The notes below the pieces were generated by a model. That model was not told where the DNA came from, did not search any database, and saw nothing but the letters and a program-made list of their open reading frames with translations. From Methylotenera versatilis 7 (GTDB lineage: Bacteria > Pseudomonadota > Gammaproteobacteria > Burkholderiales > Methylophilaceae), in the NCBI RefSeq assembly GCF_000799165.1, contig NZ_JUGF01000001.1, positions 434,001 to 498,000 on the forward strand: 64,000 bases of DNA, in the 5' to 3' direction. The translations under genes were made by a program, and so were the position numbers. This document shows, in pieces, positions 20,822 through 37,740 of the stretch (positions are counted from its first letter, which is position 1; the number at the start of each line of letters is the position of its first letter).

Positions 20822-20861
20822 TGGCTGCTCAAATTGAGTGAAAGCCAGAAACATCCGGATT
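20822..20861 (-). repeat. decayed tRNA-Asn 3'-half remnant, copy A
   Basis: On the minus strand this reads AATCC...GAGCAGCCA and aligns over about 40 bases with the 3' half of tRNA-Asn seen better in copies B-D, but it has many changes, including in the T-arm. A terminator follows directly, as in the other copies. It is the most decayed of the four. Confidence 0.55.
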
Positions 20862-20987
20862 AGCAATTGAGTGAACTTAAGTTTTTATTCGATTAAATCT
20901 TATCTAAGATACACATACTCAATGTAGTTTGGCTTTAAAATTAATGACATATAGCCAGACAATGCGCCAAATATTCAAAGGATCAAC

Positions 20988-22952
20988 ATGTTGAAAAGTT
21001 TTTGGAAAAAAACTTCATCTCCCCCTCATTTAATTGCTTTACGTATTTTCATCGTCTATATCTTAATTGGCGTTATATGGATATTTTTCAGCGATCGTAT
21101 CCTTCAGACGCTGGTCACTACGCAAGAACAGTATACTCATTACAGTATTTATAAAGGCTGGGCATATATTATGCTTACCGCACTTCTGCTTTATTTCTTA
21201 GTACGTAAAACCATACAGGAATATCTTGAAATAGAAAGCTCTTTAAATGTAAGCGAGGATCGTTGGAAATTCGCGCTAGAAGGCGCTGGAGATGGCGTTT
21301 GGGATTGGAATGTGGTCACGGACCAAGTATTTCGCTCGGCACGATGGAAGGAAATCTACGGATATATCAATAATGAACTGGAAGAAACTGCTACGGCAGG
21401 GCGCAGGCTTGTGCATCCAGATGATTTGTCTCATATGCTGGAAGACACGCAAGCTTATTTACAAGGGAGGAGAAATATCTATACGTCTGAATTTCGACTT
21501 CTTTGCAAAGATGGCACTTGGAAATGGACACTAAGTCGCGGTATGGTTATCAGCCGCGACGATGATGGTAAACCTTTGCGTATGATTGGTACACATACTG
21601 ACATCAGTGAGAGGAAAAATGCTGAGGCTCAAGTGTTTCGCTTGGCACACTACGATCAAATCACTCATCTGGCTAATCGAAATTTATTTCTAGACCGTTT
21701 TCAACAAGAGATTAAAAAGAGTCAGCGCAACAACCAATCTATCACTTTAATGTACTTGGATTTGGACAACTTCAAGGAAATCAACGATACACTCGGGCAT
21801 GATATGGGAGATTTGTTGCTGAAAGAAACCGCGGATCGCCTAGTGACTTGTGTGAGAGCTGATGATACTGTCGCACGCATGGGTGGCGATGAATTCACCA
21901 TCATATTGAGTAGTCTCAATAATCAAATGAGTACTGAGCCTATTGCACAAAATATTTTAGATAAGTTTGCTGAGCCTTTTAATTTGGAAGGTGAGGTTGT
22001 GTATATCACCACCAGCATAGGCATCAGTGTTTATCCGGTTGATGGCACAGAGGTGGATGTATTGCTTAAAAATGCAGATCAGGCGATGTATGCGGCTAAA
22101 GAGCAGGGCAGAAACCGCTATCACTATTTCACTGCATTCATGCAAGAAGCTGCGTTAACTCGCATGCATCTAAGCAACGATTTGCGCGGCGCATTGGCAG
22201 CAAATCAATTTCGATTGTATTACCAGCCTATTGTAGAACTCGCATCCGGCAATATTCATAAAGCGGAAGCCCTAATTCGCTGGCAACATCCACAACGCGG
22301 TTTGGTTAACCCGGATGAGTTTATCCCTATTGCCGAACACACCGGCATGATTATTGGAATTGGTGACTGGGTATTTGCCGAAGCGGTAGATCAGGTCGTT
22401 AAATGGCGTGCCCATCAGCCCGATTTTCAAATCAGCATCAATCGCTCTCCAGTGCAGTTTAGGGCTAACCTCAAATATCACCTGAATTGGATCAACCATC
22501 TACAGTCACTAGGACTATCCGGAAACAGCATTTGTATCGAAATTACTGAAGGTCTATTGCTGGATGCCCGTGATGGGGTAATAAGTCAGCTGGATAGTTA
22601 TAGCAAAGCCGGTATTCAAGTAGCAATTGATGATTTTGGTACTGGCTATTCATCGCTGGCATACTTAAGGAAATTCAATATTGATTATGTGAAAATTGAC
22701 AGGTCATTCACGTCTAATATCTATCCGGATTCTAGCGATTTAGTGTTATGCGAGGCCATTATCGCCATGGCGCATAAGTTAGGCAAAAAAGTAGTTGCAG
22801 AAGGTATTGAAACTCAAGGGCAACTAGATTTGCTGATGGCGGCAGGTTGTGATTTTGGGCAAGGCTATTTATTTTCCAAGCCAATTCCTGCTAACGATTT
22901 TGAAAGCCTTTTATGGAAAAGAACTAAAGTCAAAAGTTTGACCGGACAATAA
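20988..22952 (+). CDS. membrane PAS-GGDEF-EAL cyclic-di-GMP protein
   Basis: A 654-residue protein with two N-terminal membrane helices (about residues 17-38 and 60-72) enclosing a short periplasmic loop, a PAS domain with PAC tail (residues about 90-215, GDGVWDWNVVTDQVFRS), a GGDEF domain with intact MGGDEF motif, and an EAL domain with intact EALIRW and DDFGTGYSSL segments. Both enzymatic signatures look complete, so it could make and break c-di-GMP; such proteins are often net phosphodiesterases. The PAS domain may sense redox state or a ligand. It stands alone, convergent with modA. Confidence 0.92.
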   Translation: MLKSFWKKTSSPPHLIALRIFIVYILIGVIWIFFSDRILQTLVTTQEQYTHYSIYKGWAYIMLTALLLYFLVRKTIQEYLEIESSLNVSEDRWKFALEGAGDGVWDWNVVTDQVFRSARWKEIYGYINNELEETATAGRRLVHPDDLSHMLEDTQAYLQGRRNIYTSEFRLLCKDGTWKWTLSRGMVISRDDDGKPLRMIGTHTDISERKNAEAQVFRLAHYDQITHLANRNLFLDRFQQEIKKSQRNNQSITLMYLDLDNFKEINDTLGHDMGDLLLKETADRLVTCVRADDTVARMGGDEFTIILSSLNNQMSTEPIAQNILDKFAEPFNLEGEVVYITTSIGISVYPVDGTEVDVLLKNADQAMYAAKEQGRNRYHYFTAFMQEAALTRMHLSNDLRGALAANQFRLYYQPIVELASGNIHKAEALIRWQHPQRGLVNPDEFIPIAEHTGMIIGIGDWVFAEAVDQVVKWRAHQPDFQISINRSPVQFRANLKYHLNWINHLQSLGLSGNSICIEITEGLLLDARDGVISQLDSYSKAGIQVAIDDFGTGYSSLAYLRKFNIDYVKIDRSFTSNIYPDSSDLVLCEAIIAMAHKLGKKVVAEGIETQGQLDLLMAAGCDFGQGYLFSKPIPANDFESLLWKRTKVKSLTGQ

Positions 22953-23054
22953 AACTTGCTAGTGCTAATTCTCCCGTATATCGACAAGAATGCATGGTTT
23001 CTTTATTCAAATGAATCCGATGGCGTTGAAAAGTTACAAATTGATGACTTAATA

Positions 23055-23087
23055 CATAGGACGCACTGTCAATGAGTGCGCCCTATG
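23055..23087. other. strong hairpin between convergent genes
   Basis: CATAGGACGCACT-GTCAATG-AGTGCGCCCTATG: 13-base arms with one mismatch. It lies between the convergent GGDEF-EAL and modA genes. It has no T-run, so it may be a Rho-independent-like end for both genes or a small palindromic repeat. Confidence 0.5.
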
Positions 23088-23152
23088 CCGGTTGCAGCGC
23101 TTAGTATGAAAATAGAGTAAATGCCAACGTTTATTATTAAATCAAATTGACT

Positions 23153-23920
23153 TTATGGCTTTTTGAGAATGCTAAAACCATACTTTTGGAAAACTTCCAA
23201 AGCTGCATTAGATTGAATATAAGCAAAATAATCATTATTCACATTTTTTGCATTCGCCACAAATGCCATTGGATAAACAATAGGCTTATGGCTCTCTTCT
23301 GGAAAGGTTGTAATAATTTCTACTTTATTCGAAACTTTAGCATCGGTCTCATAGACAATTCCCGCGCCGCACTCACCGCGTTCAACAAATGCCAGTGCTC
23401 CTCTTACATCTTGTGCACCGACGATTCTGGTTTTAATCCCATCCCACCAATTTAAATAAGTAAGTGATTCCTTAGCGTAGATACCTGCAGGCACGGATTC
23501 AATGTCACCGGTACATAATCTACCGTCAAAAGCTTTTGAGAAATCGAATGACTTCTCAAGCTTCACGTTAAAACCACGGCCTTTTGGGGCGATAAGCACT
23601 AACTTGTTGCCTAAGAACTCTTTACGCGATGCTACGTTAATCAGTTTTTTATCCTGCAAATAATTCATCCATTTAGTATCCGCTGAGATAAAAATATCCG
23701 CAGGTGCACCATTTTCAATTTGTTTTGCGAGGGTTGAAGAGGCGGCGAAAGAGTGGGTGATTTTAGTCGCCTTTTCTTTTTCGTACTGCACACTTATGTC
23801 AGTCATGGCGTTGGTTAAGCTAGCAGCAGCAAATACGGTAACTTTGTCATCAGCATTCGCAACGATACCTAAAATTGCAAGCAGTAAGGCAATTGCCCAT
23901 GTAGCAATATTTTTCATCAT
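23153..23920 (-). CDS. modA: molybdate ABC transporter substrate-binding protein
   Basis: The 255-residue protein has a signal peptide (MKNIATWAIALLLAILGIVANA) and the ModA pattern: VFAAASLTNAMTDIS, FAASSTLAKQIENGAPADIFISAD, and ALAFVERGECGAGIVYETDA near the end. It binds molybdate or tungstate in the periplasm for import. Its start lies 31 bases after the OprP-type porin gene, so the two form one transcript under the ModE-like operator at 25526. No modB or modC is found in the window; the permease must be encoded elsewhere. Confidence 0.93.
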   Translation of the reverse strand: MMKNIATWAIALLLAILGIVANADDKVTVFAAASLTNAMTDISVQYEKEKATKITHSFAASSTLAKQIENGAPADIFISADTKWMNYLQDKKLINVASRKEFLGNKLVLIAPKGRGFNVKLEKSFDFSKAFDGRLCTGDIESVPAGIYAKESLTYLNWWDGIKTRIVGAQDVRGALAFVERGECGAGIVYETDAKVSNKVEIITTFPEESHKPIVYPMAFVANAKNVNNDYFAYIQSNAALEVFQKYGFSILKKP

Positions 23921-23951
23921 GTTTTTTTCCTTAATTGTTAGGTAGTAGCGA

Positions 23952-25427
23952 TTAGAAGTCGTATTGGGCTCTTAGCACAATCGCTTTTTCAGTGTCGTCA
24001 AGTTTGCCATTAATTCGAATGTCATCTTCAAATTCCGTTTGAATATAGTTAAGCACTAAACGTGAATTTGGATTCATTATCCATTTGGCACCAGCTGTCC
24101 AAGAACTTGCTTCACTGCTGAATGCGGTAGTTGCTGTTGCTGCTGGTAATAATGATTTGAAATCTGATGCATCAAACTTACTGTAACGTAAGCCCAATTC
24201 GAAAGCGCCCCAGCCGTCTTTGGTATCGAAATTATTTTTTGGCTTTAATCTACCAAATACACCACTTTTGTAGGTATCTGCATATGATTCACCTGTGACT
24301 AGCCAATTCAAATCGGCGTACCATACCTTGATGTCATTATCAAAGGCAATTCCAGCAGCAGTTGGACCGCGTTTACCTTCAAAATTCGCATTGATATATT
24401 CCGCCTGTACTTTTACAGGACCATAAGCCAATGCAGTTTCCAGACCCAAACGATCTCGATCGGAGGTGAGTGCTGAGCTAATGTTTGCAACATTAAAAAA
24501 TTGTACTCCACTGCCTTCTGTACTTTGCGCAATACTATTACCTGCTGAAGTAGAAAAACCGATACTTCCTGTACTTGCTGATGCGCCAACATGCAACACT
24601 AAGTCTTTATTTTCAGTAAAGCTGGCAAAGTTAGCGTTAATTCTACCGCCGATATCTTTGCTATCTCTTACATCATCGACGTTTTGTGCCGTGCCATTCA
24701 CTATATAAGCATTGTAATTCAGCCATGGTAACGGATCGCCAAATACCATGACGCCTCGGTCATAGGTTGAGGTAAATATAGAACCGTTATTGGTTGCTAA
24801 AGAGAGTTCAGTAAAGTCAGTAAAATTGGTACTTTGTGGGCGTTCTAAGCCGAAAAATGGTTTGAACTGACCGACACGAATCTTTGCAGCTGGCCAGCGA
24901 TTAAAATCCAGATAGCCATATGTTAAAGCTGTCGTGCCTTTTGCGCCCGTATTATCGTTTGCATATTCGCCTTCAACCCGCACTGCAAAATCCTTTAAGA
25001 AGGAAAAAGTACCGCCGAATCTTGCGCGACGAATACTGAATGTGTCATTCTTCCACTCATCTGGCTGATAGGTTCTATAGTCAGTCTGGATACGACCGTT
25101 CAACTGCAATTTCCAGTTACCTGTGCCATCTTCAAATACCAGGCCATCTTTAAAGGCGCCATAAATAGGCGAACCTTTACTGCTCCCTTTTTCTTCTGAT
25201 CTAGTTATTTTTGATTGGCTGACTTGGTTTTCAATTCCTACCAATTCTTTGGTTAATAATTCGACTTGCTTGTCTTGTTCGGCACGTTGTTGTTGCATCG
25301 TTTGCAGCGCTTTTTCTAATTGCTGGATACGTGCTTCAAGGTCTGAGTTTTCTGCGCTTGCACTTAGTGGCATTGAAACTGTAATTATTGAAGATAGCAG
25401 TACTCGTTTTGAAAGAGGGAAGTGCAT
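23952..25427 (-). CDS. OprO/OprP-family porin, ModE-controlled
   Basis: A 491-residue outer-membrane protein: signal peptide, then a coiled-coil stretch (LEARIQQLEKALQTMQQQ, trimer stem) and a 16-strand porin barrel ending in YDF with terminal Phe. The pattern GRIQTDYRTY, SIRRARFGGTFSFLKDFAVRVEGEY and RVGQFKPFFGLERPQS is that of phosphate-selective porins O and P. These channels prefer anions. Its location right before modA and behind a ModE-type operator suggests uptake of molybdate or another oxyanion rather than phosphate; that is inference. Confidence 0.88.
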   Translation of the reverse strand: MHFPLSKRVLLSSIITVSMPLSASAENSDLEARIQQLEKALQTMQQQRAEQDKQVELLTKELVGIENQVSQSKITRSEEKGSSKGSPIYGAFKDGLVFEDGTGNWKLQLNGRIQTDYRTYQPDEWKNDTFSIRRARFGGTFSFLKDFAVRVEGEYANDNTGAKGTTALTYGYLDFNRWPAAKIRVGQFKPFFGLERPQSTNFTDFTELSLATNNGSIFTSTYDRGVMVFGDPLPWLNYNAYIVNGTAQNVDDVRDSKDIGGRINANFASFTENKDLVLHVGASASTGSIGFSTSAGNSIAQSTEGSGVQFFNVANISSALTSDRDRLGLETALAYGPVKVQAEYINANFEGKRGPTAAGIAFDNDIKVWYADLNWLVTGESYADTYKSGVFGRLKPKNNFDTKDGWGAFELGLRYSKFDASDFKSLLPAATATTAFSSEASSWTAGAKWIMNPNSRLVLNYIQTEFEDDIRINGKLDDTEKAIVLRAQYDF

Positions 25428-25525
25428 AATGTCTCCTGGTTTTTATATTGGCAAAGTGCGAATGGGGGCAAATACCTTCTTTGGTAAAGCTTCATTTCTG
25501 CGTTAAATACCATCTTTGGTGTTAT

Positions 25526-25553
25526 ATCGTTATATTATCAGAAATATAGCGAT
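25526..25553. promoter_or_regulatory. ModE-type operator
   Basis: ATCGTTATAT-N8-ATATAGCGAT, arms with one mismatch, about 100 bases before the porin start codon. This closely matches the known enterobacterial ModE box (ATCGCTATATA-spacer-TATATAACGAT). A modE-like gene is next door, which supports the call. Confidence 0.82.
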
Positions 25554-25618
25554 GTTAACATTTGTGTAACAATTGCTAGAATGCGAGGATTGGCTTGAGT
25601 CTTTTAGCTTAGCGCCTA

Positions 25619-25963
25619 TCAGCGCGCTAAAAGGTCTAAAAAGTCATGCATTTCGGAAAATACATACTGCTCAGATTTAGCTTGGATAGAGAGGTACTCT
25701 TTCAAAACATGGTGCCCGAAGGATGTGAGCGTTGCGCCGCCTCCGTGCGATCCGCCTATGACGGTAGTCACTAGCGGTTCTTTAAAGCTCGCATTCATGA
25801 CCATGACCAAATCCCAAGCCCGTTTATAGGACATGTTCATACTCTTGGCTGCACCTGATATTGAACCGTGACCACTGATCGCTTGAAGCAACTGTGCTTT
25901 TCCCGGGCCAAAGGCAATGCCGTTACCATGTTGAATTTGAATTTTAATTTTGACCGGATACAT
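25619..25963 (-). CDS. one-domain ModE-like molybdate regulator
   Basis: A 114-residue winged-helix protein of the ModE N-terminal (LysR-like) type: LLQAISGHGSISGAAKSMNMSYKRAWDLV, then GGSHGGGATLTSFGHHVL. The molybdate-binding TOBE domains of full-length ModE (about 260 residues) are absent. Short forms occur in many proteobacteria, where molybdate sensing is either lost or done by another protein. It is transcribed in the same direction as the porin-modA pair, with its stop about 65 bases before the operator, so it may repress that operon. Confidence 0.85.
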   Translation of the reverse strand: MYPVKIKIQIQHGNGIAFGPGKAQLLQAISGHGSISGAAKSMNMSYKRAWDLVMVMNASFKEPLVTTVIGGSHGGGATLTSFGHHVLKEYLSIQAKSEQYVFSEMHDFLDLLAR

Positions 25964-26114
25964 GGATTAAGTTAACTCTATTTTTTCTTATTAATGTAAA
26001 AATAATATGGAATCATATTCAAGTAAGTCTATGTATCTAAATTACTAATCATAATACGTTGAGACAAAAATAGGGGAGTAAAGAGTAAATAGTGGTAAAA
26101 ACTGGTGAACTACA

Positions 26115-26148
26115 TAAAAAACGGGTTTCAGATATGTTCTGAAACCCG
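26115..26148 (-). terminator. terminator following tRNA-Asn remnant copy B
   Basis: An 11-base-pair perfect stem CGGGTTTCAGA/TCTGAAACCCG with a five-base loop, followed on the minus strand by six T residues. It comes directly after the tRNA-like 3' end of copy B. Confidence 0.85.
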
Positions 26149-26157
26149 CTTAGAATT

Positions 26158-26197
26158 TGGCTCCTCGACCTGAGATCGAACCAGAAATCCACGGATT
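26158..26197 (-). repeat. tRNA-Asn 3'-half remnant, copy B
   Basis: Minus strand: AATCCGTGG...GGTTCGATCTCAGG then TCGAGGAGCCA. The acceptor 3' strand and the T-loop TTCGA are intact, with several changes in the T-stem and variable loop. No 5' half is present. Confidence 0.75.
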
Positions 26198-26236
26198 GTT
26201 TGAGTTCGATTGGCTAATACTCTCAATTCAATTGTT

Positions 26237-27487
26237 TTATTCAGATATGAGAAACTCGTTATCGTCTGTTCTTATGTAAAAACTTCCTTGAGGGTCTATT
26301 TTAAGCGCTCTAATCCTATACCCAGTTAATACGGGCTCGGCATAAACAAAACTCGCTCCTTCTTTCTTAGCCCGATACAGGGTTTTAGAGGCCATACCGG
26401 CAAAAAAATAATTATTATCCCAATAGTCGTTTTTTCCAGTGCTGGCATATTTAGCAATGGGACCGATTCCTATGGATGGTAGAAATGTCATGACAGGCTT
26501 TTCATAACCCTCATGGCTGTTAAATTTATTGCCATAATAATTGCCCATTCCATCTCTTTCATAAATGGTTCCATAACTCACAATGGGCCACCCATAATTC
26601 TTATTTCGCTTGATCAGATTGATCTCATCTCCGCCTCTAGGGCCGTGCTCAGTTAACCAAAGCTCATTCGACTCTCGATCATACATAAGTCCTCCTGATG
26701 GTGATCTAAGACCTGACGCAAAGACTTCAGCATTGAGTCGTTTTAAATCTATACGAATGACTTTGCCGATAGACGTAGTGTTGTCTTGTACGCGCTCCGG
26801 CTTTGAAAAATCCCCTATACTTAAATATAGCGTGTAGTCATTTTCCCCAATAGCTAACTTCCCACCCACTTGATGACCTAATATGGGCTCTTTGATAGCG
26901 GGTCGGCTTAAATATATTTCTCTTTTGAAGATAAGTTCGTAACCCTCTTTATCTAGTTCAAATTCAGATACAGCTAACCTGACGCCATTAAATTGATCGT
27001 CCCAAACGGTATAGGCGACAAAAAGTGAATGATTGATCAGTAACGAATCCTTAACCCCAGATAAGTCTTTACAATACACCACGTTCTTGGCATCACTTTC
27101 TTCAGTAGAATTCTCACTGCCAGGGATAAACTTGGACAATTTCTTGCCGGTTTTCGTTAACACCATTTCGCTATCCAATTTCGCAAAATGGATATCTCCG
27201 CATTTACTTATAAAAAGATATTGTGCTGTATCAAGCTTCTCAAAAGGCCCCATTGGGTAACCATCTTCAAATGGCAAAGCAAATACTTTGAGGTTTGAAG
27301 TGCCGAACACTGACTGAATTCGAACAGGCTCTTTTTCGACTTGGGGAGCATCAGTTATTAATAACGTAGGCACGTTTTGATTCATATCATTACTGGTTGT
27401 GCCGGAAGGGTTAGATTGCTCAGATGTTGCGATAGAGCTTTGAAAAGTGAGAAGAAATACCACTACAAACAGAACAGTTTTCTGCAT
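26237..27487 (-). CDS. PQQ-dependent sugar dehydrogenase family protein (YliI-like)
   Basis: A 416-residue exported protein: signal peptide (TVLFVVVFLLTFQSSIA), then a six-bladed propeller of the soluble glucose/sorbosone dehydrogenase family. The family motif ELWLTEHGPRGGDEINLI is clear, as is NYGWPIVSYGTIYERDG. Related proteins oxidise aldose sugars with PQQ in the periplasm. The protein has lower similarity than usual in the N-terminal blades, so its substrate is uncertain. It is the only gene between tRNA remnants B and C, which suggests acquisition as a single-gene cargo. Confidence 0.82.
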   Translation of the reverse strand: MQKTVLFVVVFLLTFQSSIATSEQSNPSGTTSNDMNQNVPTLLITDAPQVEKEPVRIQSVFGTSNLKVFALPFEDGYPMGPFEKLDTAQYLFISKCGDIHFAKLDSEMVLTKTGKKLSKFIPGSENSTEESDAKNVVYCKDLSGVKDSLLINHSLFVAYTVWDDQFNGVRLAVSEFELDKEGYELIFKREIYLSRPAIKEPILGHQVGGKLAIGENDYTLYLSIGDFSKPERVQDNTTSIGKVIRIDLKRLNAEVFASGLRSPSGGLMYDRESNELWLTEHGPRGGDEINLIKRNKNYGWPIVSYGTIYERDGMGNYYGNKFNSHEGYEKPVMTFLPSIGIGPIAKYASTGKNDYWDNNYFFAGMASKTLYRAKKEGASFVYAEPVLTGYRIRALKIDPQGSFYIRTDDNEFLISE

Positions 27488-27658
27488 TCATACCTCAGAT
27501 GTTTTTTTAATTTAGATTAGAATACTTTGAATATTGATTATTAATAATCGTTATACAGTTGGGCATCGCCGCACTAAAACTACATTTATTAAGAAATGCG
27601 TTGCAGTCTTTGATTAAGTCTTCATTAAAGTAATTAGATTTACAACTTAAATGTTAAC

Positions 27659-27682
27659 AAAAAAAGCCACCTAATGGTGGCT
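27659..27682 (-). terminator. Rho-independent terminator upstream of the sugar dehydrogenase gene
   Basis: Minus-strand stem AGCCACC/GGTGGCT with loop of four bases, followed by seven T residues. It would stop transcripts coming from the tRNA-remnant side and insulate the dehydrogenase gene. The rest of 27488-28114 holds repeat copy C and no gene that I can see. Confidence 0.8.
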
Positions 27683-27820
27683 CACAATTCATTATCGATT
27701 TTTAGTCGATATATGTTCGCTATCAATAAGAGCTTTATTTCTTCAAGTAATTTTTGCAGAGCGGAATAAGAATTGCAGAGCGAAAAAAACCGCCAACATC
27801 TCTGTCAGAGGCTTAATATT

Positions 27821-27932
27821 TGGCTCCTCAACCTGGGCTCGAACCAGGGACACACGGATTAACAGTAGGACGCAACTCCCAATTATGTATCTGAAAGCCT
27901 AAGATTTCTAATAAATTTCCTGTATGTCATTA
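27821..27932 (-). repeat. tRNA-Asn 3'-half remnant plus flank, copy C (112 bases)
   Basis: Minus strand CTGTTAATCC...GGTTCGAGCCCAGG...GAGGAGCCA is the tRNA-Asn (anticodon GTT) sequence from the anticodon loop to the 3' end, without the 5' half. A further flank of about 67 bases beyond the anticodon loop is shared with copy D. The 112 bases align to 37629-37740 without gaps and with few mismatches. A degenerate terminator-like sequence ending in seven T follows. Confidence 0.85.
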
Positions 27933-28114
27933 AACTCGTAGGTGCTGGCGTTCTCTTCTGGTGTGCAGTAGTCTAAGATTATCTCGCGGGACGAACCACA
28001 TGAGTGAGCCTTTACGTTGACAGAAAGAGCAATTGCAAGACATCGCGCCAGTCAGTGTTCCTTCTACTTCAAACTTGATTTGCCAGAAAATACTCTATCA
28101 AGTGTACAAAAAGT

Positions 28115-29071
28115 TTATCTAAGCTTTTTATGTTTGTACATTAAGCTGTCTGCATCGGCAACCATATTGTTGATTGACTCATGTTTTTGATTGTCGTACT
28201 CTACAGAACCAATACTAAACTCAATGTCATATCCTCTGTTTGATTTTCTGTTGTAATCTAAAACATTTTGTTGCAAACGTTCCAAGCTTTTTTTGCATTC
28301 TTCTGCCGAACATTTCGTTTGTAGTACGGCAAACTCATCACCACCAATACGGCCAATTACATCGAAATCTCGAAATGTTTCTCTTAATAGGTGACTAAAC
28401 TCACGAAGCGCATGATCACCCTCGGCATGACCATATTTATCATTGATAGATTTAAATTTATCAAGATCAATAAACATTAAAGATGCTGAGAATCCCATTC
28501 TGTTACACAGTGATAGTGCGCGCTTCGAGAGTGATTCAAACCCGCGCTTATTAGAAATCATTGTTAATTCGTCTATTGTAGCCAATTGAATTGCGACGAC
28601 TTCCTGTTCTACCATACGAGCTAGATCGCGTAGCAGCTCTGCATCCTCATCACTAAAGTCTCTCGGTGATTGATCAATTAAGCAAATCGTTCCTAATTTA
28701 CTTCCGTTTGGGGCACTAATCGGACATCCCGCATAAAAACGAATGTTAGGAGAGCCTGTAACAAGTGGATTACCAACAAACCTTGGATCAAGTACTGTGT
28801 CTAATACAATAAATACCTCATCACCTAAAATTGCATGTCCACAGAAAGAAATGTCCCTAGAAGTTTCTTTGACATCCAAACCAAGTGACGATAAAAACCA
28901 CTGGCGATCTGTATCTATCAAAGAGATAAGCGCTACAGGCACTCTAAACATTCTTTTAGCTAGTCGTGTTATTCGGTCAAAGCGTTCTTGCGGCGAAGAG
29001 TCAAGGATACCCAGTGACACTAATGTATCAATTCGAATTTTTTCATTAGGGGGAGTGGCCGGTTGTTGCAT
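28115..29071 (-). CDS. GAF-GGDEF diguanylate cyclase
   Basis: A 318-residue soluble protein: GAF domain (residues about 25-150, with VPVALISLIDTDRQWFLSSLG and SFCGHAIL) and a GGDEF domain with intact IGGDEFAVL motif, predicted to make c-di-GMP. The GAF segment is of the type found in many light- or redox-responsive cyclases. ATG at 29071 is preceded by AGGAAAAAG; an ATG 21 codons upstream is less likely. The gene occupies an insertion of about 1.3 kb that splits a repeat whose uninterrupted form is at 37.6-37.9 kb, so it was probably added to the island later. Confidence 0.88.
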   Translation of the reverse strand: MQQPATPPNEKIRIDTLVSLGILDSSPQERFDRITRLAKRMFRVPVALISLIDTDRQWFLSSLGLDVKETSRDISFCGHAILGDEVFIVLDTVLDPRFVGNPLVTGSPNIRFYAGCPISAPNGSKLGTICLIDQSPRDFSDEDAELLRDLARMVEQEVVAIQLATIDELTMISNKRGFESLSKRALSLCNRMGFSASLMFIDLDKFKSINDKYGHAEGDHALREFSHLLRETFRDFDVIGRIGGDEFAVLQTKCSAEECKKSLERLQQNVLDYNRKSNRGYDIEFSIGSVEYDNQKHESINNMVADADSLMYKHKKLR

Positions 29072-29261
29072 CTTTTTCCTGATACTTATGTTTAATACTT
29101 TATATACGAAACACAATTGGGAAATTAGTTGCAAATATCTAAAGCTGGTTTACGAGAAATTATATTCGAGGACAATCGCGAATGATAGATGAGTGAACTG
29201 TGAAATATTAAAAATAATGCATCTCTCTAACTATTTCTTGAACGTGACACTCCGCAGAGAA

Positions 29262-29345
29262 CTCTAAAAAACAAAATTAATAAATGAGTTACTGCTAGTT
29301 ATTAATGAACCGAAATCGATTGTGCTTAAAAAATCTTCTTTAATT
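29262..29345. repeat. second part of split repeat, copy C2
   Basis: Begins CTCTAAAAAACAAAA and matches 37802-37885 over about 80 bases, including the shared CGATTGTG and TTAAAAAAT words. At 37.7 kb the two parts are 61 bases apart; here they are 1.3 kb apart, with a GAF-GGDEF gene between. Confidence 0.65.
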
Positions 29346-29769: not shown

Positions 29770-30181
29770 ATTAATATCACTTTTTTTGTAATGATTATAA
29801 CTTTCATGATTAGAGTTACATATTGCTAAATGCACAACTTATTTTAAAGCCGAGCAAATGCAACAATTATTAAGCAGTTCGGCCCATAACGGACATTCAA
29901 CGTTTAAGTTGAATTACGCATTAAAGTACGTCACAGATGAGCTATTATTAGGGTTGATTTATACCACCTTATATCAAGGACTGCATCTTAATTGCTTATC
30001 AATTGATGTCAGTTTTCCACTGGATAGGCTTGCTTGATATGTCCTATGTAAGTTTTGAGTAATACCTAACCATGACTCAAGTTTTGGATTTATTCCAATA
30101 TTATGTTAGCTAACTAACAAAGTCATGAAGTAAATAGTGCAATACTCAATCCATAAATTCACCCTTTAATGGAGGTTAATT

Positions 30182-31156
30182 GTGGCACTATCCAATGAAA
30201 CATACTCAGAAGAATTAGTTCTTGGCGAACCTTCAGCCGAAAATTATTATAAGAGCCCGTTAAATGCTAGTGCCGTTTCTTGGGGTGCGATATTGGCAGG
30301 AGCCACAGCAGCTGCCGCATTATCGTTAATCCTCTTACTCTTGGGCGCGGGTTTGGGTCTGTCATCTGTTTCACCCTGGGCGCAAAAAGGTGTTAGTGCG
30401 GGTGCATTTGGAATCTCTACCATTGTTTGGCTGACGGTTACTCAAATTCTTGCAGCTGGTATGGGTGGTTATCTAGCGGGAAGGCTAAGAGCAAAATGGG
30501 CTGGCGCGCATGCGGATGAAGTCTATTTCCGCGATACAGCACATGGTTTTCTATCTTGGGCTGTTGCATCACTTGCTACTGCCGCCTTACTTACATCTGC
30601 AATCGGAACCATTGTTAGTGGCGGTACACAGGCCGCAGCCAGTTTGGCTGGCGGAGCAGTAGCTGCCACTGTGACAGGTGTTGCTTCGGGTGAATCTGGC
30701 AATTCTGATCATGGAATACAGTCAGGCACTGAGGGGCTAGGATATTTTGTTGACGCTCTGTTTCGACCAAATATGCATATGCCCATTGAGTCATCTACAG
30801 AAGATAGTGCCACAACTGGCACGCCTCAAAAAACAACCCTAGTATCAGAAGTGACACGAATCTTTGTTCATTCAATGGATGCAAAAACATTGCCAGCAGC
30901 AGATATGTCTTATATCGGCCAACTAATTTTAAAGAATACCGGTTTGACTCAGCAAGAGGCTGAAAAACGCGTCGATGATATTTATAACAACTTACAGAAA
31001 CAGAAAGCGGATGCTGAAGTAGCCGCGAAAGAGGCAGCCGAAAAAGCACGTAAAGCGACTATCTACGCAACATTGTGGTTGTTTGTTTCACTGCTGATGG
31101 GAGCGTTTTCAGCAAGCCTTGCGGCTACCTGGGGTGGTCGAGAGCGTGATGTTTAA
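30182..31156 (+). CDS. hypothetical polytopic membrane protein of stress cluster
   Basis: A 324-residue protein with four glycine/alanine-rich membrane helices in the first 190 residues (SWGAILAGATAAAALSLILL, WLTVTQILAAGMGGYLAGRL and following), a cytoplasmic helical region rich in Lys/Ala/Glu (coiled coil around QKQKADAEVAAKEAAEKARK), and a last helix at the C-terminus. Similar proteins occur beside hemerythrin, catalase and CsbD-type genes in environmental proteobacteria; function unknown. GTG start with a strong GGAGG ribosome site. It heads the cluster of membrane peptide, hemerythrin and catalase. Confidence 0.75.
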   Translation: MALSNETYSEELVLGEPSAENYYKSPLNASAVSWGAILAGATAAAALSLILLLLGAGLGLSSVSPWAQKGVSAGAFGISTIVWLTVTQILAAGMGGYLAGRLRAKWAGAHADEVYFRDTAHGFLSWAVASLATAALLTSAIGTIVSGGTQAAASLAGGAVAATVTGVASGESGNSDHGIQSGTEGLGYFVDALFRPNMHMPIESSTEDSATTGTPQKTTLVSEVTRIFVHSMDAKTLPAADMSYIGQLILKNTGLTQQEAEKRVDDIYNNLQKQKADAEVAAKEAAEKARKATIYATLWLFVSLLMGAFSASLAATWGGRERDV

Positions 31157-31197
31157 TCGTATTTAACTAATCCCTTCTATTCATTCTGGAGACTATT

Positions 31198-31272
31198 ATG
31201 CGTTCATTATTATTATTTTTTCTTGGTGTGCCTATTCCACTCATTATCTTAATCGCTCTATTCGTTCATTAA
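31198..31272 (+). CDS. 24-residue hydrophobic membrane peptide
   Basis: ATG to TAA encodes 24 residues, almost entirely one helix (LLLFFLGVPIPLIILIALFV). CTGGAG lies upstream at about ten bases. The gene fits the 145-base gap between the membrane protein and hemerythrin genes. The Pro-Ile-Pro kink inside the helix resembles tiny membrane peptides often found in stress loci. Not proven to be translated. Confidence 0.5.
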   Translation: MRSLLLFFLGVPIPLIILIALFVH

Positions 31273-31301
31273 ATGGAGTATTCCTAAAAGGAAAGTGTGC
31301 G

Positions 31302-31790
31302 ATGAAAACTGAACAAGGTAAGACTGGGAAATTTATTGCTCCAATCAAATCTCAGGAAGCTATCAAACTACTCATTGCTGATCATAGACTTGTTAGCAAG
31401 CTGTTTGATGAATATGAAAAAGCATCCACAAAGGCCATGAGGAAGAAATTAGTGGCTCAAATCTGTATGGAGTTGAGTATTCATGCGCAAGTAGAAGAGG
31501 AGATTTTTTATCCTGCGGTTAAAAAGGCATTAAAAGATCACGAGCTTGTTCCTGAAGCGACAGTAGAGCATGCGAGCTTGAAAACGCTTATTGCACAAAT
31601 TGAAGGCAAAGAGCCGGATGGAGAAATGTACGACGCCAAAGTAAAGGTGCTTTGTGAATATGTGAAGCATCATGTGAAAGAAGAGCAAAACGAGATGTTT
31701 CCGAAAGCGAAGGCGACAAATCTGGATATGGTGGAATTGGGCGAAAAAATCACGGCTCGTAAGCAAGAGTTGATTGCTGAGAAAGCTTAA
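31302..31790 (+). CDS. hemerythrin HHE-domain protein
   Basis: A 162-residue four-helix protein with the expected di-iron ligands: His in ADHRLVSKLF, His/Glu in SIHAQVEEEIFYPAV, His in VEHASLKTLI, and His/Glu in YVKHHVKEEQNEMFPKA. HHE proteins bind oxygen or nitric oxide, or protect iron-sulfur repair. The gene is immediately before the catalase gene (50-base gap), so a shared role against oxygen stress is likely. Confidence 0.9.
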   Translation: MKTEQGKTGKFIAPIKSQEAIKLLIADHRLVSKLFDEYEKASTKAMRKKLVAQICMELSIHAQVEEEIFYPAVKKALKDHELVPEATVEHASLKTLIAQIEGKEPDGEMYDAKVKVLCEYVKHHVKEEQNEMFPKAKATNLDMVELGEKITARKQELIAEKA

Positions 31791-31840
31791 TACCAACTGT
31801 TTACTTTTTAAAATGTAAGTTTCATTTTTAGGGTGATTCT

Positions 31841-33931
31841 ATGAGCAACGAAAAGTCAGTAAGCAATAAAGACAAAGCATCTTCCAGCAATACTCATTTA
31901 GGAAATGGTGGAGAGGTTCATCAGCTCGCTAGTGGCGATCATTCCTTATTGACGACTAATCAAGGAGTAGGGATTTCTGATAATCAAAATTCGCTTAAAG
32001 CCAATCCTCGCGGCCCAACGTTATTAGAAGATTTCATCTTACGAGAAAAAATCACACACTTTGATCATGAACGTATCCCTGAGCGTATCGTTCATGCGCG
32101 CGGAACTGGTGTTCATGGATACTTTGAGTTAACAACCTCGTTACAAAAATACACAACCGCAAAAATACTGACGGAAGTTGGTACAAAGACGCCACTTTTT
32201 ACACGCATCTCAACTGTTGCTGGCGGCTCTGGCTCTGTTGATACGCCACGTGACGTACGCGGTTTTGCTATTAAATTTTTTACGCAAGAGGGTAATTGGG
32301 ATTTAGTGGGTAACAATATTCCAGTTTTCTTTATTCAGGATGCAATCAAATTTCCTGATTTAGTGCACGCTGTAAAAATGGAGCCAGATCGTGGTTTTCC
32401 ACAATCTGCTACTGCGCATGATACTTTTTGGGACTTTATCTCGCTCACGCCCGAATCCATGCATATGGTGATGTGGATCATGTCCGACCGCACAATTCCA
32501 CGTTCATTACGCATGATTGAAGGCTTTGGTGTACATAGCTTCCGCTTGATTAATGAAAGTGGCGACTCTACTTTTGTAAAATTCCACTGGCGCCCAAAAC
32601 TAGGCCTTCAATCTACGATATGGGATGAAGCGGTTAAAATAGCTGGTGCTGACCCAGATTTCTTGCGGCGTGAAATGTTTGAAGCGATTGAAGCGGGTGA
32701 TTTTCCAGAATGGGAATTTGCCGTGCAACTTTTCACCCAAGAAGAAGCGGATAAATTCCCATTTGATCATCTAGATGCTACTAAACTAATTCCAGAAGAG
32801 CTTGTTCCGCTGAAAGTGATTGGCCGTATGGTACTTGATCGCTGGCCAAATAATTTCTTCGCAGAAACAGAACAAGTCGCATTTTGCCCATCACATGTTG
32901 TACCAGGCATTGATTTCAGCAACGACCCGCTTTTACAAGGTCGCTTATTCTCTTATTTAGATACTCAGCTATCCCGTTTGGGTTCAGCTAATTTCCACCA
33001 GATACCAATTAATGCGCCAAAATGTCCTTTTGCCAACCATCAACGTGATGGCCATATGCAGATGGACCAGCCAACTGGCAGAGTTGCTTACGAACCTAAC
33101 TCCTTATCTACAGACTCTCCACGTGAGTCACCAAAAGGCTTTCATAGCGCGGTTGTTAACGAGTCTGGAGATAAAGGCAGAGTCAGGGCAGAAAGCTTCG
33201 CAGATCATTACTCTCAAGCACGACAGTTTTTTATTAGCCAGACAAGCTATGAGCAGGCGCACATTGCGTCCGCATTAGTGTTTGAGCTATCTAAAGTGGA
33301 ACATTTACACATTAGAGTGGCAATGGTTGCGCATTTACTGCATATATCAGAAGACCTAGCGAATAGAGTAGCTAAAGGATTGGGATTGGATAAGATGCCA
33401 AACGCACCAAAAGCTGCTGCAAAAGTACAAGAAATGCCAGCATCACCAGCATTGCAAACTATCGGAAAAATGAAAAACACCTTGCAAGGACGTTTAATCG
33501 GCATTCTTGTTGCAGATGGCTCAGATGCAACTGTGATTAATAGTATCAAAAAGGCTGTAATCAAGGCTGGTGCAAGTGTCAAAGTGGTTGGGCCAAAAAT
33601 TGGCGGTGCAAAATTAAGTGATGGCTCTATTCACGCAGTTGATGGACAGCTTGCTGGAACACCTTCAGTAATATTTGATGCTGTAGCAATCATTCTCTCC
33701 AATGAAGGTGCAAAAACACTCTCTACGGAATCTGCTGTAATCGATTTTATCCGCGATGCATTTGGTCATTTAAAAGCTATTGCTGTAGATAATGGAGGCG
33801 AAGTCTTAGTTAATAAAGCAAACATTACTGCCGATAAAGGTGTGATAAATGCTTCAGATATAGAGGCTTTTATTTCCGCAGCAAAAACGCGCCAATTTGA
33901 TAGAGAGAAATCAGTTCGAACATTAGCTTGA
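31841..33931 (+). CDS. katE: large-subunit (clade 2) catalase
   Basis: The 696-residue protein is a heme catalase of the HPII type. The catalytic His85 is in RIVHARGTG, the distal Asn region in [11 protein letters not shown], and the proximal heme tyrosine in [15 protein letters not shown]. The C-terminal extension from about residue 540 ([20 protein letters not shown] onward) is the DJ-1/flavodoxin-like domain that only large-subunit catalases have. It destroys hydrogen peroxide in the cytoplasm. Such catalases are usually induced in stationary phase or by general stress. Confidence 0.95.
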
Positions 33932-34123
33932 TATTTAGATGCTCATTAAATATTAGCTTTAGATAAGTGAGATGCAACTGCCCAAGTTCTTTGATTAATT
34001 GGGTTTTAAGTAGTATTGCATTAACTTTCAGAGCGTAATCAACCCCCTACATAAGAGTAATCATATTTCCTATAAATATTCTTAATTCAATAAATTATGG
34101 TTATGACTTTAGGAGAATGAATA

Positions 34124-34993
34124 ATGGATAAACAGGGCACTCAAAAGAAAACAATTCCTGCTCAACATCAAACACATAATCCTGGGTTAGAGAGCAAGAT
34201 GACGCCAGAACCTGAGTACATTAAAAAAGACTATCGTCCCAGTGGTAAATTGAAGAACAAAGTAGCCATCATCACTGGCGGTGATAGTGGAATTGGCAGA
34301 GCAATCGCAATAGCCTATGCTGTAGAAGGTGCCAATGTTGTTATTCAATATTTAAATGAACATATTGATGCCAAAAAAACTAAAAAATTAGTAGAGGATG
34401 CTGGTAGAGAATGCTTGTTAATCTCTGGCGATTTACGCGAAGAAAAATTCTGCAAATCAATTATCACCAAAACAATCGGGTATTTTGGCAAGCTTGATGT
34501 TGTCGTCAATAATGCAGCCGAACAGTTTCCGCAGGACGATTTTTTAGAGATTAAAACCGATGAATTAATCGATACTTTCCGCGTCAATATATTCCCACTA
34601 TTTCACATTATTAAAGCGGCCATACCCCATTTAAAAAAAGGCAGCAGCATTATTAACACAGCCTCAGTTACAGCATATCGAGGCAGTGATCATTTAATTG
34701 ATTACTCTGCTACTAAAGGTGCAATCGTTACACTCACTCGGTCGCTTTCTAAACAGCTTATAAAGAAAGGTATCTACGTGAATGCGGTGGCTCCGGGGCC
34801 TATTTGGACACCTCTGATCGCTTCAACATTTTCGGCTAAAGAAGTTAAAAAATTTGGGACAAATACGCCTATGGGAAGAGCAGGCCAACCAAGTGAAGTT
34901 TCGCCTTGCTATGTTTTTCTTGCCTCAAATGACTCTTCATATATGAGTGGTCAAGTCCTTCACCCAAATGGAGGTGAAATTATTAACACCTAA
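34124..34993 (+). CDS. SDR-family oxidoreductase (YghA/YhdF-like)
   Basis: A 289-residue short-chain dehydrogenase. Cofactor motif TGGDSGIGRAIAIAYAVEGAN; NNAAEQFPQD strand; catalytic Ser and Tyr-Lys in INTASVTAYRGSDHLIDYSATKGA. The N-terminal extension of about 40 residues (PAQHQTHNPGLESKMTPEP) is typical of the YghA/YhdF/general-stress SDRs. Substrate unknown. It follows the catalase gene by about 190 bases and belongs to the stress set. Confidence 0.9.
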   Translation: MDKQGTQKKTIPAQHQTHNPGLESKMTPEPEYIKKDYRPSGKLKNKVAIITGGDSGIGRAIAIAYAVEGANVVIQYLNEHIDAKKTKKLVEDAGRECLLISGDLREEKFCKSIITKTIGYFGKLDVVVNNAAEQFPQDDFLEIKTDELIDTFRVNIFPLFHIIKAAIPHLKKGSSIINTASVTAYRGSDHLIDYSATKGAIVTLTRSLSKQLIKKGIYVNAVAPGPIWTPLIASTFSAKEVKKFGTNTPMGRAGQPSEVSPCYVFLASNDSSYMSGQVLHPNGGEIINT

Positions 34994-35263
34994 AATATTA
35001 AAAATGGAGGCGATAAATGCTTAATAAGAGGATAAGGAGCCAGAAAAGATTGTAAAAATGGCTCTTAAATTGGTTTTAAGTAAGGATTTATTAAGCGCTA
35101 GTCAGTTTATGACTGAATCTGGAGTATCAAACAAAATAATTGCATTTCAAAGATAGATATCTTGAACGTCATCCATACCTTACATATTTTCCAGAACAAT
35201 CCCTACATTTATTATGTCGAGAAACTTTCATAGTTATGTCTAAATATAACAAAGGAGAAAGTA

Positions 35264-35380
35264 ATGTTCTTTCTAGGATGGCAAGGTATTTATACTTTTA
35301 TCGCACTATGTATTTTTGTTGGTTTAATTATTTTTTACTTTGCGAAAAAAATAAATTTAGAATCAAGTTCAAGCATTTAG
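35264..35380 (+). CDS. 38-residue membrane peptide
   Basis: A strong ribosome site AAAGGAGAAAGTA precedes ATG. The product has one helix (IYTFIALCIFVGLIIFYFA) and a short polar tail (KKINLESSSSI). Like the 24-residue peptide at 31198 it belongs to the stress island. No known family. The strong ribosome site is the main reason to believe it. Confidence 0.55.
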   Translation: MFFLGWQGIYTFIALCIFVGLIIFYFAKKINLESSSSI

Positions 35381-35495
35381 GACGATGACTCTCTAATCTT
35401 ATTCTAAGCAAATATAGCTCTTTAGATTGTTTCTAAATATCATTAAACTTTTAAGATGGCTTAGTTAGCTTATAACAATGTTATGCGGTTTCTTC

Positions 35496-35732
35496 CTATA
35501 GAAACTTCATAGACTTCAATAATCCATCAGGCTTTGCATGGCATTCGACAATGGGAGTGTTATGATCAGTCAGCGTAACTAAAAGAATGTTAGCTTCGCA
35601 TTCTTCCTTGGTCTTGAAGCTAACAGCACTTTTAGCAATAACAATATTTCCGCAAATTTTGGTTAACTGCCAGTGCCACTCTGGAACTGATGGTTGCTCG
35701 GGATTTGGTTCGTTGTACATTTCAAATAGCAT
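35496..35732 (-). CDS. small DUF1508/YegP-like protein
   Basis: A 78-residue protein. The core WHWQLTKICGNIVIAKSAVSF followed by KTKEECEANI matches the pattern of YegP/DUF1508 modules (Trp-rich strand, then an S-x-x-C helix). These small domains are of unknown role. AGGAG precedes the start. Its neighbours are the 38-residue peptide (convergent) and a long gene-free region upstream. Confidence 0.6.
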   Translation of the reverse strand: MLFEMYNEPNPEQPSVPEWHWQLTKICGNIVIAKSAVSFKTKEECEANILLVTLTDHNTPIVECHAKPDGLLKSMKFL

Positions 35733-36356
35733 AAAATTTACTCCTAGAATAAAGATAAAGTAAGCTAATTAGTACTTTGCAGGATCGTAAACTTTAATAA
35801 TTTGAAGTGTTTTTAAGGCTCTGGAAACCTTAAAATTCAAAATCTTGCAGCAATTCACTGTATACCTTTAAATACTAATGTAAAAAACATATATTCATAT
35901 GAGCTACAAACGTTAACCCAACATTCAGCAACTTAGATGCGAGTAAGAAAACGGCAGCATAGATGTAGAGGCTGCCGTAGTGTCGTGTATTGAGGTCAAA
36001 TCTAGGGATTTATCAAACTCGACAGTTGCACTTTATACTTTTGTTTGAGTTTGGTTTGTAAGTATTTGTCTGATTAAATTGTAGGATTATTCAGCAAAAT
36101 AAATTTTTCTATACCTCTGCTTAACATAGATGGTTTGATTAGGTGGTTTTGCGTCAGTTGGCCACAACCCCCATAACGGTCATTCAAAAAACTCAACTTC
36201 GTAGAATCAACCTTATGTCTAAGTAAATGGTCCGTTGGAGGAATGCTGGCTTTTAATTTGCATTAGTGGATAGAGCTGTTGTCAGTATATACTGGTCTGT
36301 ATATATTTGGCTTAAACATATATCCTATTCCTTAAGCAACACTCTTGAGAGTCATC
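35733..36356. other. gene-free region
   Basis: About 620 AT-rich bases without a convincing gene. Around 36165-36200 a phrase CCCATAACGGTCATTCAA resembles one at 29883-29900 (CCCATAACGGACATTCAA), a short dispersed intergenic similarity of unclear meaning. The 3' end holds the promoter and leader of the DUF2380 gene. Confidence 0.5.
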
Positions 36357-36887
36357 ATGAAATATCTAACAATATTCTTATCTGTAACGTTCAGTATCAT
36401 TTTTCCTGTCCTAAACTATGCGAACGCAGCCGCGTCTTCTAAAGTCATGGTCTTAGACTTTCAACTAAACGATTTAACAGATCTTCCGAATGCACCACAG
36501 GAATTAGAGCGCATCAGTTATCTAACAAAGACTTATAAAGAAGTTTTAGAGAAGAAAGGTGTAAATATTGTACCTGTGGCCGACAAGTTGAAAGCCGATA
36601 TCCAAAATCAATCACCCACCTATTTATTTGACCAAATCGAATATGTTGCGGAAGTGGCTACAGAAAGTGGAGCCGATTACGCGCTAATAAACGTAGCGCT
36701 GAAACCTACATACTTATTTGTCTACCCAAGAATTTTGCTTGTCGATGCTAAGCTGAAAAAAGTAGTACTGGCCAAAGCTTTTCAATTGGAGAGTTCATGG
36801 ACAGACCAAAACACGACTGCAAATACTGCAAAGAAAATGGCAGAAGCCGTTGCAGCTGCAATTAAGAGCTTCGACGAGAAAAAATGA
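36357..36887 (+). CDS. exported DUF2380/DUF3280-type protein
   Basis: The 176-residue protein has a signal peptide (YLTIFLSVTFSIIFPVLNYANA) and then KVMVLDFQLNDLTDLPNAPQE, the opening of DUF2380/DUF3280 proteins, with ADYALINVALKPTYLFVYPRILLVDAK later. These periplasmic proteins resemble the CsgG/TolB-like lipoprotein fold; function unknown. I start at the ATG at 36357 rather than a TTG four codons earlier. It stands alone inside the candidate island. Confidence 0.72.
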   Translation: MKYLTIFLSVTFSIIFPVLNYANAAASSKVMVLDFQLNDLTDLPNAPQELERISYLTKTYKEVLEKKGVNIVPVADKLKADIQNQSPTYLFDQIEYVAEVATESGADYALINVALKPTYLFVYPRILLVDAKLKKVVLAKAFQLESSWTDQNTTANTAKKMAEAVAAAIKSFDEKK

Positions 36888-37111
36888 ATGCTTTAAGGTA
36901 ATAAATCTTCATTTATATAGCGTATTTAAATTTAACAACCATCAGATTTTATTGGTACTACGAGGTAGCTTTGGGCCGGAAGAAGGCTTAGATTAGCGTT
37001 GGCGGTGAACGTAAGAAACGCTACTATTATTAACTTTGCATGGCTCATGTAGATAGTTAGATATCATCCAAAAGTGGATATTTGCTTACCTAGAATCAAT
37101 TTAAAAACCTA

Positions 37112-37141
37112 AAATAAGCCCCTAAATTTAGGGGCTTATTT
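37112..37141. terminator. bidirectional Rho-independent terminator
   Basis: AAATAAGCCCCTAAA/TTTAGGGGCTTATTT forms a perfect 15-base-arm palindrome with A/T ends. It lies between the convergent DUF2380 (+) and DUF5710 (-) genes. Apart from it, 36888-37259 contains no feature I can see. Confidence 0.85.
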
Positions 37142-37259
37142 CATTCAGTTGCAGGTTTTTTGTTTAATTACCAAAGATAGCTTAATTGCGCGTCCACTCT
37201 GCGAGATGTTCCGTAGTAGCAATAGAAGTCGCATGCGCTTGACGGCTAAGCATGAAGTA

Positions 37260-37565
37260 CTAAAATGCATCACCATCACGCGGTTCATAGGCATCGCGTA
37301 ATTTTGCGTTAATGGCATCTAGGTCGTCATCAAATGACTGATCCCGTGCGGTAGTATCTGTATTATATTTTGTGACAGGCTTAGACGCAGATGGAGTGGG
37401 GTCTATAGCCGGGGAATTTGTTAACCACTTTTCAAAGGGTGCTACATCGATGCCTTGCGGTATATACCAGTGTTTTGATTCGGCGTTCCAACGTGCACCC
37501 AATGATTTAGCTTGGTCTTTCTCGTTGAATGGTACTTTTAGACTAATGTTAGATGTGGCATTCAT
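37260..37565 (-). CDS. DUF5710-domain protein
   Basis: A 101-residue protein. Residues about 8-48 (LKVPFNEKDQAKSLGARWNA then KHWYIPQGIDVAPFEKWL) are a clear DUF5710 module, which in other proteins sits at the end of primases and plasmid proteins and is thought to bind nucleic acid. The C-terminal half is acidic and disordered. This kind of gene is typical of mobile elements and supports the island reading. The start is about 24 bases from the tRNA-remnant terminator. Confidence 0.8.
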   Translation of the reverse strand: MNATSNISLKVPFNEKDQAKSLGARWNAESKHWYIPQGIDVAPFEKWLTNSPAIDPTPSASKPVTKYNTDTTARDQSFDDDLDAINAKLRDAYEPRDGDAF

Positions 37566-37588
37566 TTTTATGAGCTATTTCCTAAAAC

Positions 37589-37617
37589 AAAAAAAGCCCC
37601 ACATTTCTGCAGGGCTT
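37589..37617 (-). terminator. terminator following tRNA-Asn remnant copy D
   Basis: Minus-strand stem AAGCCC/GGGCTT with a T-run of seven after it. It lies directly after the tRNA 3' end of copy D, as the other copies' terminators do, but with a different stem sequence. Confidence 0.75.
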
Positions 37618-37628
37618 CTTTATTTATT

Positions 37629-37740
37629 TGGCTCCTCGACCTGGGCTCGAACCAGGGACACACGGATTAACAGTAGGACACTACTCCAAATTATGTATCT
37701 GAAAGCCTAAGATTTCTAATAAATTTCCTGAATGCCATTA
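37629..37740 (-). repeat. tRNA-Asn 3'-half remnant plus flank, copy D (112 bases)
   Basis: Best-preserved copy: minus strand CTGTTAATCCGTGTGTCC then CTGGTTCGAGCCCAGG and TCGAGGAGCCA, which is a fully regular anticodon loop, T-arm and acceptor 3' strand of tRNA-Asn. The DNA 5' of the anticodon loop does not continue as tRNA (the anticodon stem cannot pair), so it is not a working tRNA gene. It is a direct repeat of copy C. Confidence 0.88.

Follow-up and report, generated by a model that had tools for sequence, protein, structure and literature searches.

Serial insertion at a tRNA gene is itself already known, and in the Methylophilaceae it has been described at tRNA-Lys. According to the part of PMC10872708 that deals with fGI-2 of Ca. 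Methylopumilus, a member of this family, stacked segments ranging in length from 330 bp to 42 kb and in gene number from 1 to 63 lie at tRNA-Lys and are marked by 20-nt repeats of the tRNA end. The Islander study (PMC4383910), in its sections on tandems and crossovers, counts 3919 islands, among which are 125 tandems with at least two members and 4 with at least three, and tabulates 2083 islands with an anticodon-centred crossover. Here, we analysed a 64,000-nt stretch of Methylotenera versatilis 7 (hereafter the window; C2:434001-498000 in genome G000, which comprises 2.5 Mb in three contigs). It contains four 3′ halves of tRNA-Asn, termed copies A to D from left to right, and we propose that they are the footprints of successive insertions of mobile elements at one tRNA-Asn gene.

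The locus is like fGI-2, as described in that part of PMC10872708, in the bacterial family and in the variable segments marked by the repeated end of one tRNA. It differs in its target, tRNA-Asn, and in the integrase with its attachment (att) flank, the terminators and the empty site described below. The regenerated tRNA, the same-orientation displaced 3′ fragment and the anticodon-centred crossover are shared with the islands of the cited sections of PMC4383910, whereas an Islander tandem requires an integrase of its own for each member and one integrase is left here. Since a single PF00589 match was found for four fragments, the locus is not a tandem array by the strict Islander rule. The stretch from D to the intact tRNA-Asn is 34.0 kb long, with its right boundary, the intact gene, outside the window; it combines an intact tRNA, a same-orientation displaced 3′ fragment and an internal integrase, as expected of a tRNA island. 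In the loose wording of the part of PMC10872708 cited above (a tRNA border, a tyrosine recombinase and large cargo), it might also be counted as a Tycheposon. As in additive flexible islands, the variable segments are separated by recurring copies of the tRNA 3′ end, and several genomes share this arrangement at one location. A conserved tRNA as the target of successive cassettes is common to fGI1 of Alteromonas, as outlined in PMC4119200, although the bacteria and the cargo are different and att anatomy is not part of that outline. The islands of Methylophilaceae summarized in PMC4109929 are likewise hot spots, with which tRNA genes and tyrosine recombinases are associated and for which multiple insertions were suggested; unlike that summary, the present case concerns a tRNA-Asn array with displaced halves. 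No tRNA-Asn array in Methylotenera was found among the titles and abstract openings of the open-licence papers that the searches listed, which is a weak negative. The tRNA-Asn case adds an unusually well-documented example. Its record of serial insertion is unusually complete and includes the intact target, four tails ordered by decay, empty and occupied sites in close relatives, a related element from a different genus, and a candidate integrase together with putative arm sites.

The 45-nt 3′ half of tRNA-Asn was compared without gaps with both strands of 127 kb (C2:400000-527000, five stretches), allowing up to 20 mismatches. Five sites were found, all on the minus strand: the four copies and the intact gene, tRNA-Asn(gtt), which was located by ARAGORN at C2:505657-505732, 7.66 kb past the right edge of the window. 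The window itself was without any whole tRNA according to ARAGORN and Rfam. The number of mismatches decreased towards the gene, from 16 in A to 10 in B, 1 in C, 0 in D and 0 in the gene. The same 127 kb was shuffled 40 times under a second-order Markov model, and sites with 14, 15 and 16 mismatches were counted; those with exactly 16 averaged 0.025 and those with 14 or 15 averaged 0. Therefore, A is unlikely to be a chance match, and B, C and D are far from chance. A BLAST search of the whole G000 genome (E 0.001) listed the intact gene, copies B, C and D, and the 5′ portion of a different tRNA, five matches in all, and the repeats were thus not scattered in random orientation. These results confirmed the four same-strand remnants claimed by the first-pass annotation, which was made from the letters of the window and had predicted both an intact tRNA-Asn to the right of 37.7 kb and a decay that grows away from it.

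We surveyed 15 genomes of the genus, in which 14 had a full-length tRNA-Asn match and 8 had at least one 3′ half reaching the last tRNA base. In nine of the 15 half matches listed, the first matching base is position 31 or 32 of the tRNA, at the edge of the anticodon loop, which bears out the earlier remark that identity in C and D starts at this loop. Five halves were observed on contig C5 of G006 (near 6119, 57916, 61593, 63154 and 66483); that at 63154 is weak (19 mismatches of 45, yet 5 in the last 27), and that at 66483 was found only by the ungapped scan. Halves were also present in seven scanned genomes of other genera (G106, G039, G124, G095, G111, G101 and G094), and the family search gave a tRNA-Asn match in 118 of 121 genomes. 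Eight IMG/VR stretches contained the tRNA tail, and their copies differ from the G000 3′ half at 2 to 4 of 45 positions. Several arrangements were seen besides. Among the matches listed, G116, G117, G118, G119, G105 and others have two full tRNA-Asn genes approximately 130-140 nt apart. In G013, the DNA after two tRNA-Asn halves on different contigs (L037 16978 and L053 6463) is shared over 1.3 kb at 92% identity. In G014 (L035 3944-4744), a segment of approximately 0.8 kb with one 182-codon frame lies between the intact tRNA-Asn and a half, and its sequence recurs beside tRNA-Asn in G004 and G009 (84-95%). The 9.3-kb IMG/VR sequence L115 (1-9340) has at both ends the same tRNA-Asn 3′ half, with approximately 52 nt shared and a hairpin coming next. 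Its integrase has 27% identity to that of the window. The sequence is possibly a circular form of a tRNA-Asn element.

The comparison of occupied and empty sites called for by the first-pass annotation was provided by two close relatives. In G008, core DNA directly follows tRNA-Asn, and a gene read as cold-shock (csp) lies approximately 300 nt on; this site is empty. Before the anticodon point, G007 is identical to G008 at 298 of 300 nt; thereafter it has other DNA, and core DNA of the G008 type sits behind another tRNA-Asn half (identical in 319 of the 359 columns aligned; approximately 4 kb at 94.6%). This pair documents the hotspot, not the D-to-tRNA element itself. In G000, the csp flank was found near 410.6 kb of C2, 95 kb away from the tRNA, and A is therefore not the chromosomal end of the variable region. 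As the region extends 41-44 kb farther to the left of A, the earlier description of A as the oldest, outermost remnant did not hold. A Na/H-exchanger-TrkA gene and a pirin gene beside the csp flank are common to G000 and G014, so that the G000-specific part amounts to 92 to 95 kb. The tRNA and csp are separated by approximately 13 kb (G005), 14 kb (G014) or 19 kb (G013), and the csp flank of G006 is at 80.4 kb of its contig.

An element related to that between D and the intact gene was identified in G106, which belongs to another genus. It measures 7.1 kb and is bounded by a tRNA-Asn half at C31:15364 and by the intact gene at C31:22509. The integrase encoded there shares 73% identity with the tyrosine integrase of the window, the sole PF00589 match between A and the intact gene; the primase gene of the element is 71% identical to 47538-48701 of the window, and its distal att region matches that of D at 76% over 253 nt. 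The two elements have the same order, and the window alone has an extra block at approximately 37880-45763, where the GC content is 0.494 (over 38180-45800) compared with 0.38 to 0.41 in the other array segments longer than 1 kb. A search of 150 family genomes with the 72-nt D flank gave D, C and weak matches, among them G106 (E 0.002, beside the tRNA-Asn half); the other matches listed had E from 0.0015 to 1. The C flank is 93% identical to the D flank over 67 nt, and a 1.3-kb block bearing a GGDEF gene separates two stretches of C-to-D flank homology. Because a 73% identical integrase is present in a tRNA-Asn element with a distal att region homologous to that of D, the window integrase, or close kin of it, likely made the insertions at C and D.

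Alignment of seven integrases indicated that R242, K269, H330, R333, H356 and Y365 are among the invariant residues, which we take to be the R-K-H-R-H-Y set of tyrosine recombinases. An integron was rejected, since the integrase has an Arm-DNA-bind_3 domain and adjoins tRNA att sites, although no search for attC sites was made. The relative in G013 (45%) ends approximately 435 nt from a tRNA-Asn half, and those in G008 (39%; L075 3080) and G006 (35%; L076 3086) end approximately 425 nt from halves read as tRNA-Phe; judging from the latter two, this clade seems to have switched to another tRNA with its layout unaltered. Repeats of [GA]GTTC recur at similar positions in the flanks: -178, -101 and -90 in D; -178, -101, -90 and -78 in G106; -177, -100, -89 and -78 in G007; -176, -104, -92 and -70 in G013. 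In the tRNA-Phe elements they stand at -105/-92 and -106/-93, and further ones at -205/-187 and -206/-188. Because of their homology in the repeat region, D and G106 do not count as independent instances. We regard the phased repeats as putative arm sites of the integrase. D retains three of the four and C none, its single [GA]GTTC at -132 being out of phase. Considering the integrase residues and the arm repeats at D, the D-to-tRNA stretch may still be mobile and excisable, and the segment C-D, where the arm sites are gone, is probably fixed. The case makes it testable whether old islands become immobile through the loss of their arm sites.

Each copy in the window is trailed by a hairpin and a T-run. 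The folding energy of the 60 nt after each copy was calculated with RNAfold as -23.6 kcal/mol for A, -20.6 for B, -10.3 for C, -19.1 for D and -23.1 for the intact gene. The first-pass annotation had assigned a hairpin of its own to each copy, degenerate at C. The hairpins were found after all four, and that of C was the weakest; however, D with its terminator is 98.8% identical to the intact gene with its terminator over 86 nt, so that the D hairpin is of the same type and not distinct. On sequence comparison, the tRNA-Asn terminators of the relatives do not track the host lineage. The 180 nt following a G006 half are 95.6% identical to those following the intact gene of G101, of another genus, the first 78 being without difference. 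Likewise, the intact gene of G013 and a G014 half are followed by 92 nt in common at 91%, and the intact gene of G010 matches halves of G095 and G013 over 125-137 nt at 76-86%. A GNRA tetraloop was present in 28 of the 49 copies examined (loops as called by RNAfold); the background, 14 terminator-like hairpins in 127 kb with one GNRA loop, is too small to judge whether the loop matters for more than stability. As a tentative extension that we consider somewhat improbable as a whole, the tRNA-Asn tail and terminator might form a mobile module of their own, the terminator being swapped at each insertion so that the same tRNA would bear different terminators in relatives, and the spacer between att and integrase might be a second docking place for cargo (approximately 7.9 kb at D and 1.3 kb at C). 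The locus makes it testable whether elements exchange the terminator of a tRNA gene when inserting.

We propose, with a probability of roughly 0.9, that the tRNA-Asn hotspot took up mobile elements serially and that A to D are displaced halves, older leftward. Each insertion would break tRNA-Asn near the anticodon loop; the incoming element would supply a new 3′ half and terminator, the gene would remain whole, and the old half with its old terminator would be displaced away from the gene. Because the C and D flanks are alike and the D and intact-gene terminators are alike, C-D and D-tRNA would stem from two insertions by members of the same element family, both with cargo placed next to att, and C-D would have lost its integrase and primase. 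Copies A and B would derive from other elements. The idea of serial-insertion footprints had been put forward by the first-pass annotation, and it gained the intact gene on the predicted side, the empty and occupied pair, and integrase-bearing elements between the same halves in relatives. As for the three left segments, a single integrase is left in the array, and we infer rather than observe that each was inserted separately by an integrase.

Several observations weigh against serial insertion by integrases. The PF00589 search detected no integrase in A-B, B-C or C-D, and the integrase present is 8 kb away from D, a distance that makes sense only if an inserted block is assumed. For two integrase relatives in G007 (46%), the surrounding DNA examined contained no tRNA half. 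The G014 homologue (83%) of the GGDEF-EAL gene on the A side has an internal stop and is far from tRNA-Asn. The G007 pieces are on two different contigs, and the element was not seen whole. In G106, a D-like terminator follows the distal half and another follows the intact gene, in conflict with a rule of one terminator for each element.

Among the alternatives, the one that survives best concerns the small segments, which might have entered or been shortened without an integrase, through homologous recombination or deletion between tRNA halves. B-C is only 1.7 kb with one long gene, and the gene of the small G014 segment lies beside tRNA-Asn in G004 and G009 as well, with a different continuation in G004. 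We give this account a smaller but real chance for such segments; it leaves the D-to-tRNA element and the empty and occupied pair unexplained. It is less probable, and in our view unlikely, that the array was built elsewhere and came as one or two composite blocks with internal halves instead of by four insertions in this lineage. The lack of an integrase in A-B and B-C would fit such an arrival, as would the junction at A, which is common with G006, so that at least this piece existed outside G000. However, the decay is graded towards the gene, and the C and D flanks are nearly alike while their blocks differ, which fits two separate insertions of one family.

A chance resemblance of A is very improbable. 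It could be argued from its mismatches, and A was missed both by BLAST at E 0.001 and by a local-alignment scan at score 16. However, the shuffles, on which chance matches were rejected, gave few such sites, and a hairpin follows A immediately. Moreover, the G006 half at 66483 (10 mismatches, then a hairpin) adjoins a GGDEF-EAL gene 82% identical to the neighbour of A; this better-kept half at the homologous place supports A as a real tRNA-Asn half. Decayed tandem tRNA duplicates without mobile elements, for which the paired full genes approximately 130 nt apart in some family members might speak, were rejected as the least credible origin, since 3′ halves only are found with unrelated DNA in between, the G008 site is empty, an integrase has a matching att flank, and the G106 element refutes this origin for D.

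The features of the array, on which the serial insertions proposed above are based, are listed in Table 1.

Table 1 Features of the tRNA-Asn array in the window (positions within the window).
Feature	Position	Strand	Basis
Hairpin/terminator after copy A, GAAA loop	20786-20817	-	RNAfold
Copy A, decayed tRNA-Asn 3′ half	20822-20866	-	Ungapped scan, shuffles, homologous G006 junction
PAS-GGDEF-EAL protein, distal end of segment A-B	20988-22952	+	Pfam; G006 homologue beside tRNA half
Hairpin/terminator after copy B	26116-26151	-	RNAfold
Copy B, tRNA-Asn 3′ half	26158-26202	-	Ungapped scan, BLAST
GSDH-type dehydrogenase, sole long gene of segment B-C	26237-27487	-	Pfam
Weak hairpin after copy C, GAGA loop	27783-27814	-	RNAfold
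Copy C, tRNA-Asn 3′ half	27821-27865	-	Ungapped scan, BLAST
Distal att flank at C, without phased [GA]GTTC repeats	27866-27932	-	
Block with GAF-GGDEF gene (28115-29134), breaking C-to-D flank homology	27933-29261		
Continuation of D-type flank, 78% identical to 37802-37879	29262-29341		
Cargo of C-D: hemerythrin-like, catalase, SDR, DUF3280	31302-36887	+	Pfam
DUF5710 protein, end of C-D nearest copy D	37260-37565	-	
Terminator after copy D, same as that of intact gene	37589-37619	-	RNAfold, sequence comparison
Copy D, tRNA-Asn 3′ half	37629-37673	-	Ungapped scan, BLAST
Distal att flank at D, bearing putative arm sites and homologous to G106 element	37674-37879	-	
Block between D flank and integrase, absent from G106 element	37880-45763		
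Tyrosine integrase (Arm-DNA-bind_3, SAM-like, Phage_integrase)	45822-47003	-	Pfam, homologues, alignment
Primase-like replication protein	47538-50312	-	Below Pfam cut-off; homologues
Antirestriction protein	52251-52667	-	Pfam
Beta-CASP protein, acetate kinase, phosphoketolase, Usp, nitroreductase, response regulator	55338-63769	-	Pfam

The metabolic genes of the region should be regarded as belonging to stacked units rather than to a single island. The cargo of A-B comprises GGDEF-EAL, solute-binding, porin and HTH proteins, and C-D also carries the GAF-GGDEF gene. The block between the D flank and the integrase encodes TetR, Fe-ADH, luciferase-like, two zinc dehydrogenases, OYE-type and ArsR-like proteins. 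A P-type ATPase and DUF3293 are encoded in the D-to-tRNA stretch as well. The primase-like protein matched 19 of 72,556 plasmid records, the best being that of Legionella adelaidensis (41.7% over 85%). No relaxase or type IV secretion family was found in the Pfam-scanned proteins of the D-to-tRNA stretch, of which several are short or unmatched and which do not include every open reading frame.

To the left of A but still within the variable region (window 1-20700 and L002), we observed a second cluster for a cbb3-type oxidase, another copy being at C2:264704, and a cluster of the fatty-acid/AMP-ligase type. Close homologues of the oxidase gene (75-82%) were found in four of the seven relatives searched and distant ones (33%) in three; none of the homologues in these seven was seen between tRNA-Asn and csp. 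In addition, a direct repeat of approximately 210 nt with 77% identity, its units 224 nt apart, was found at 17291-17722 of the window.

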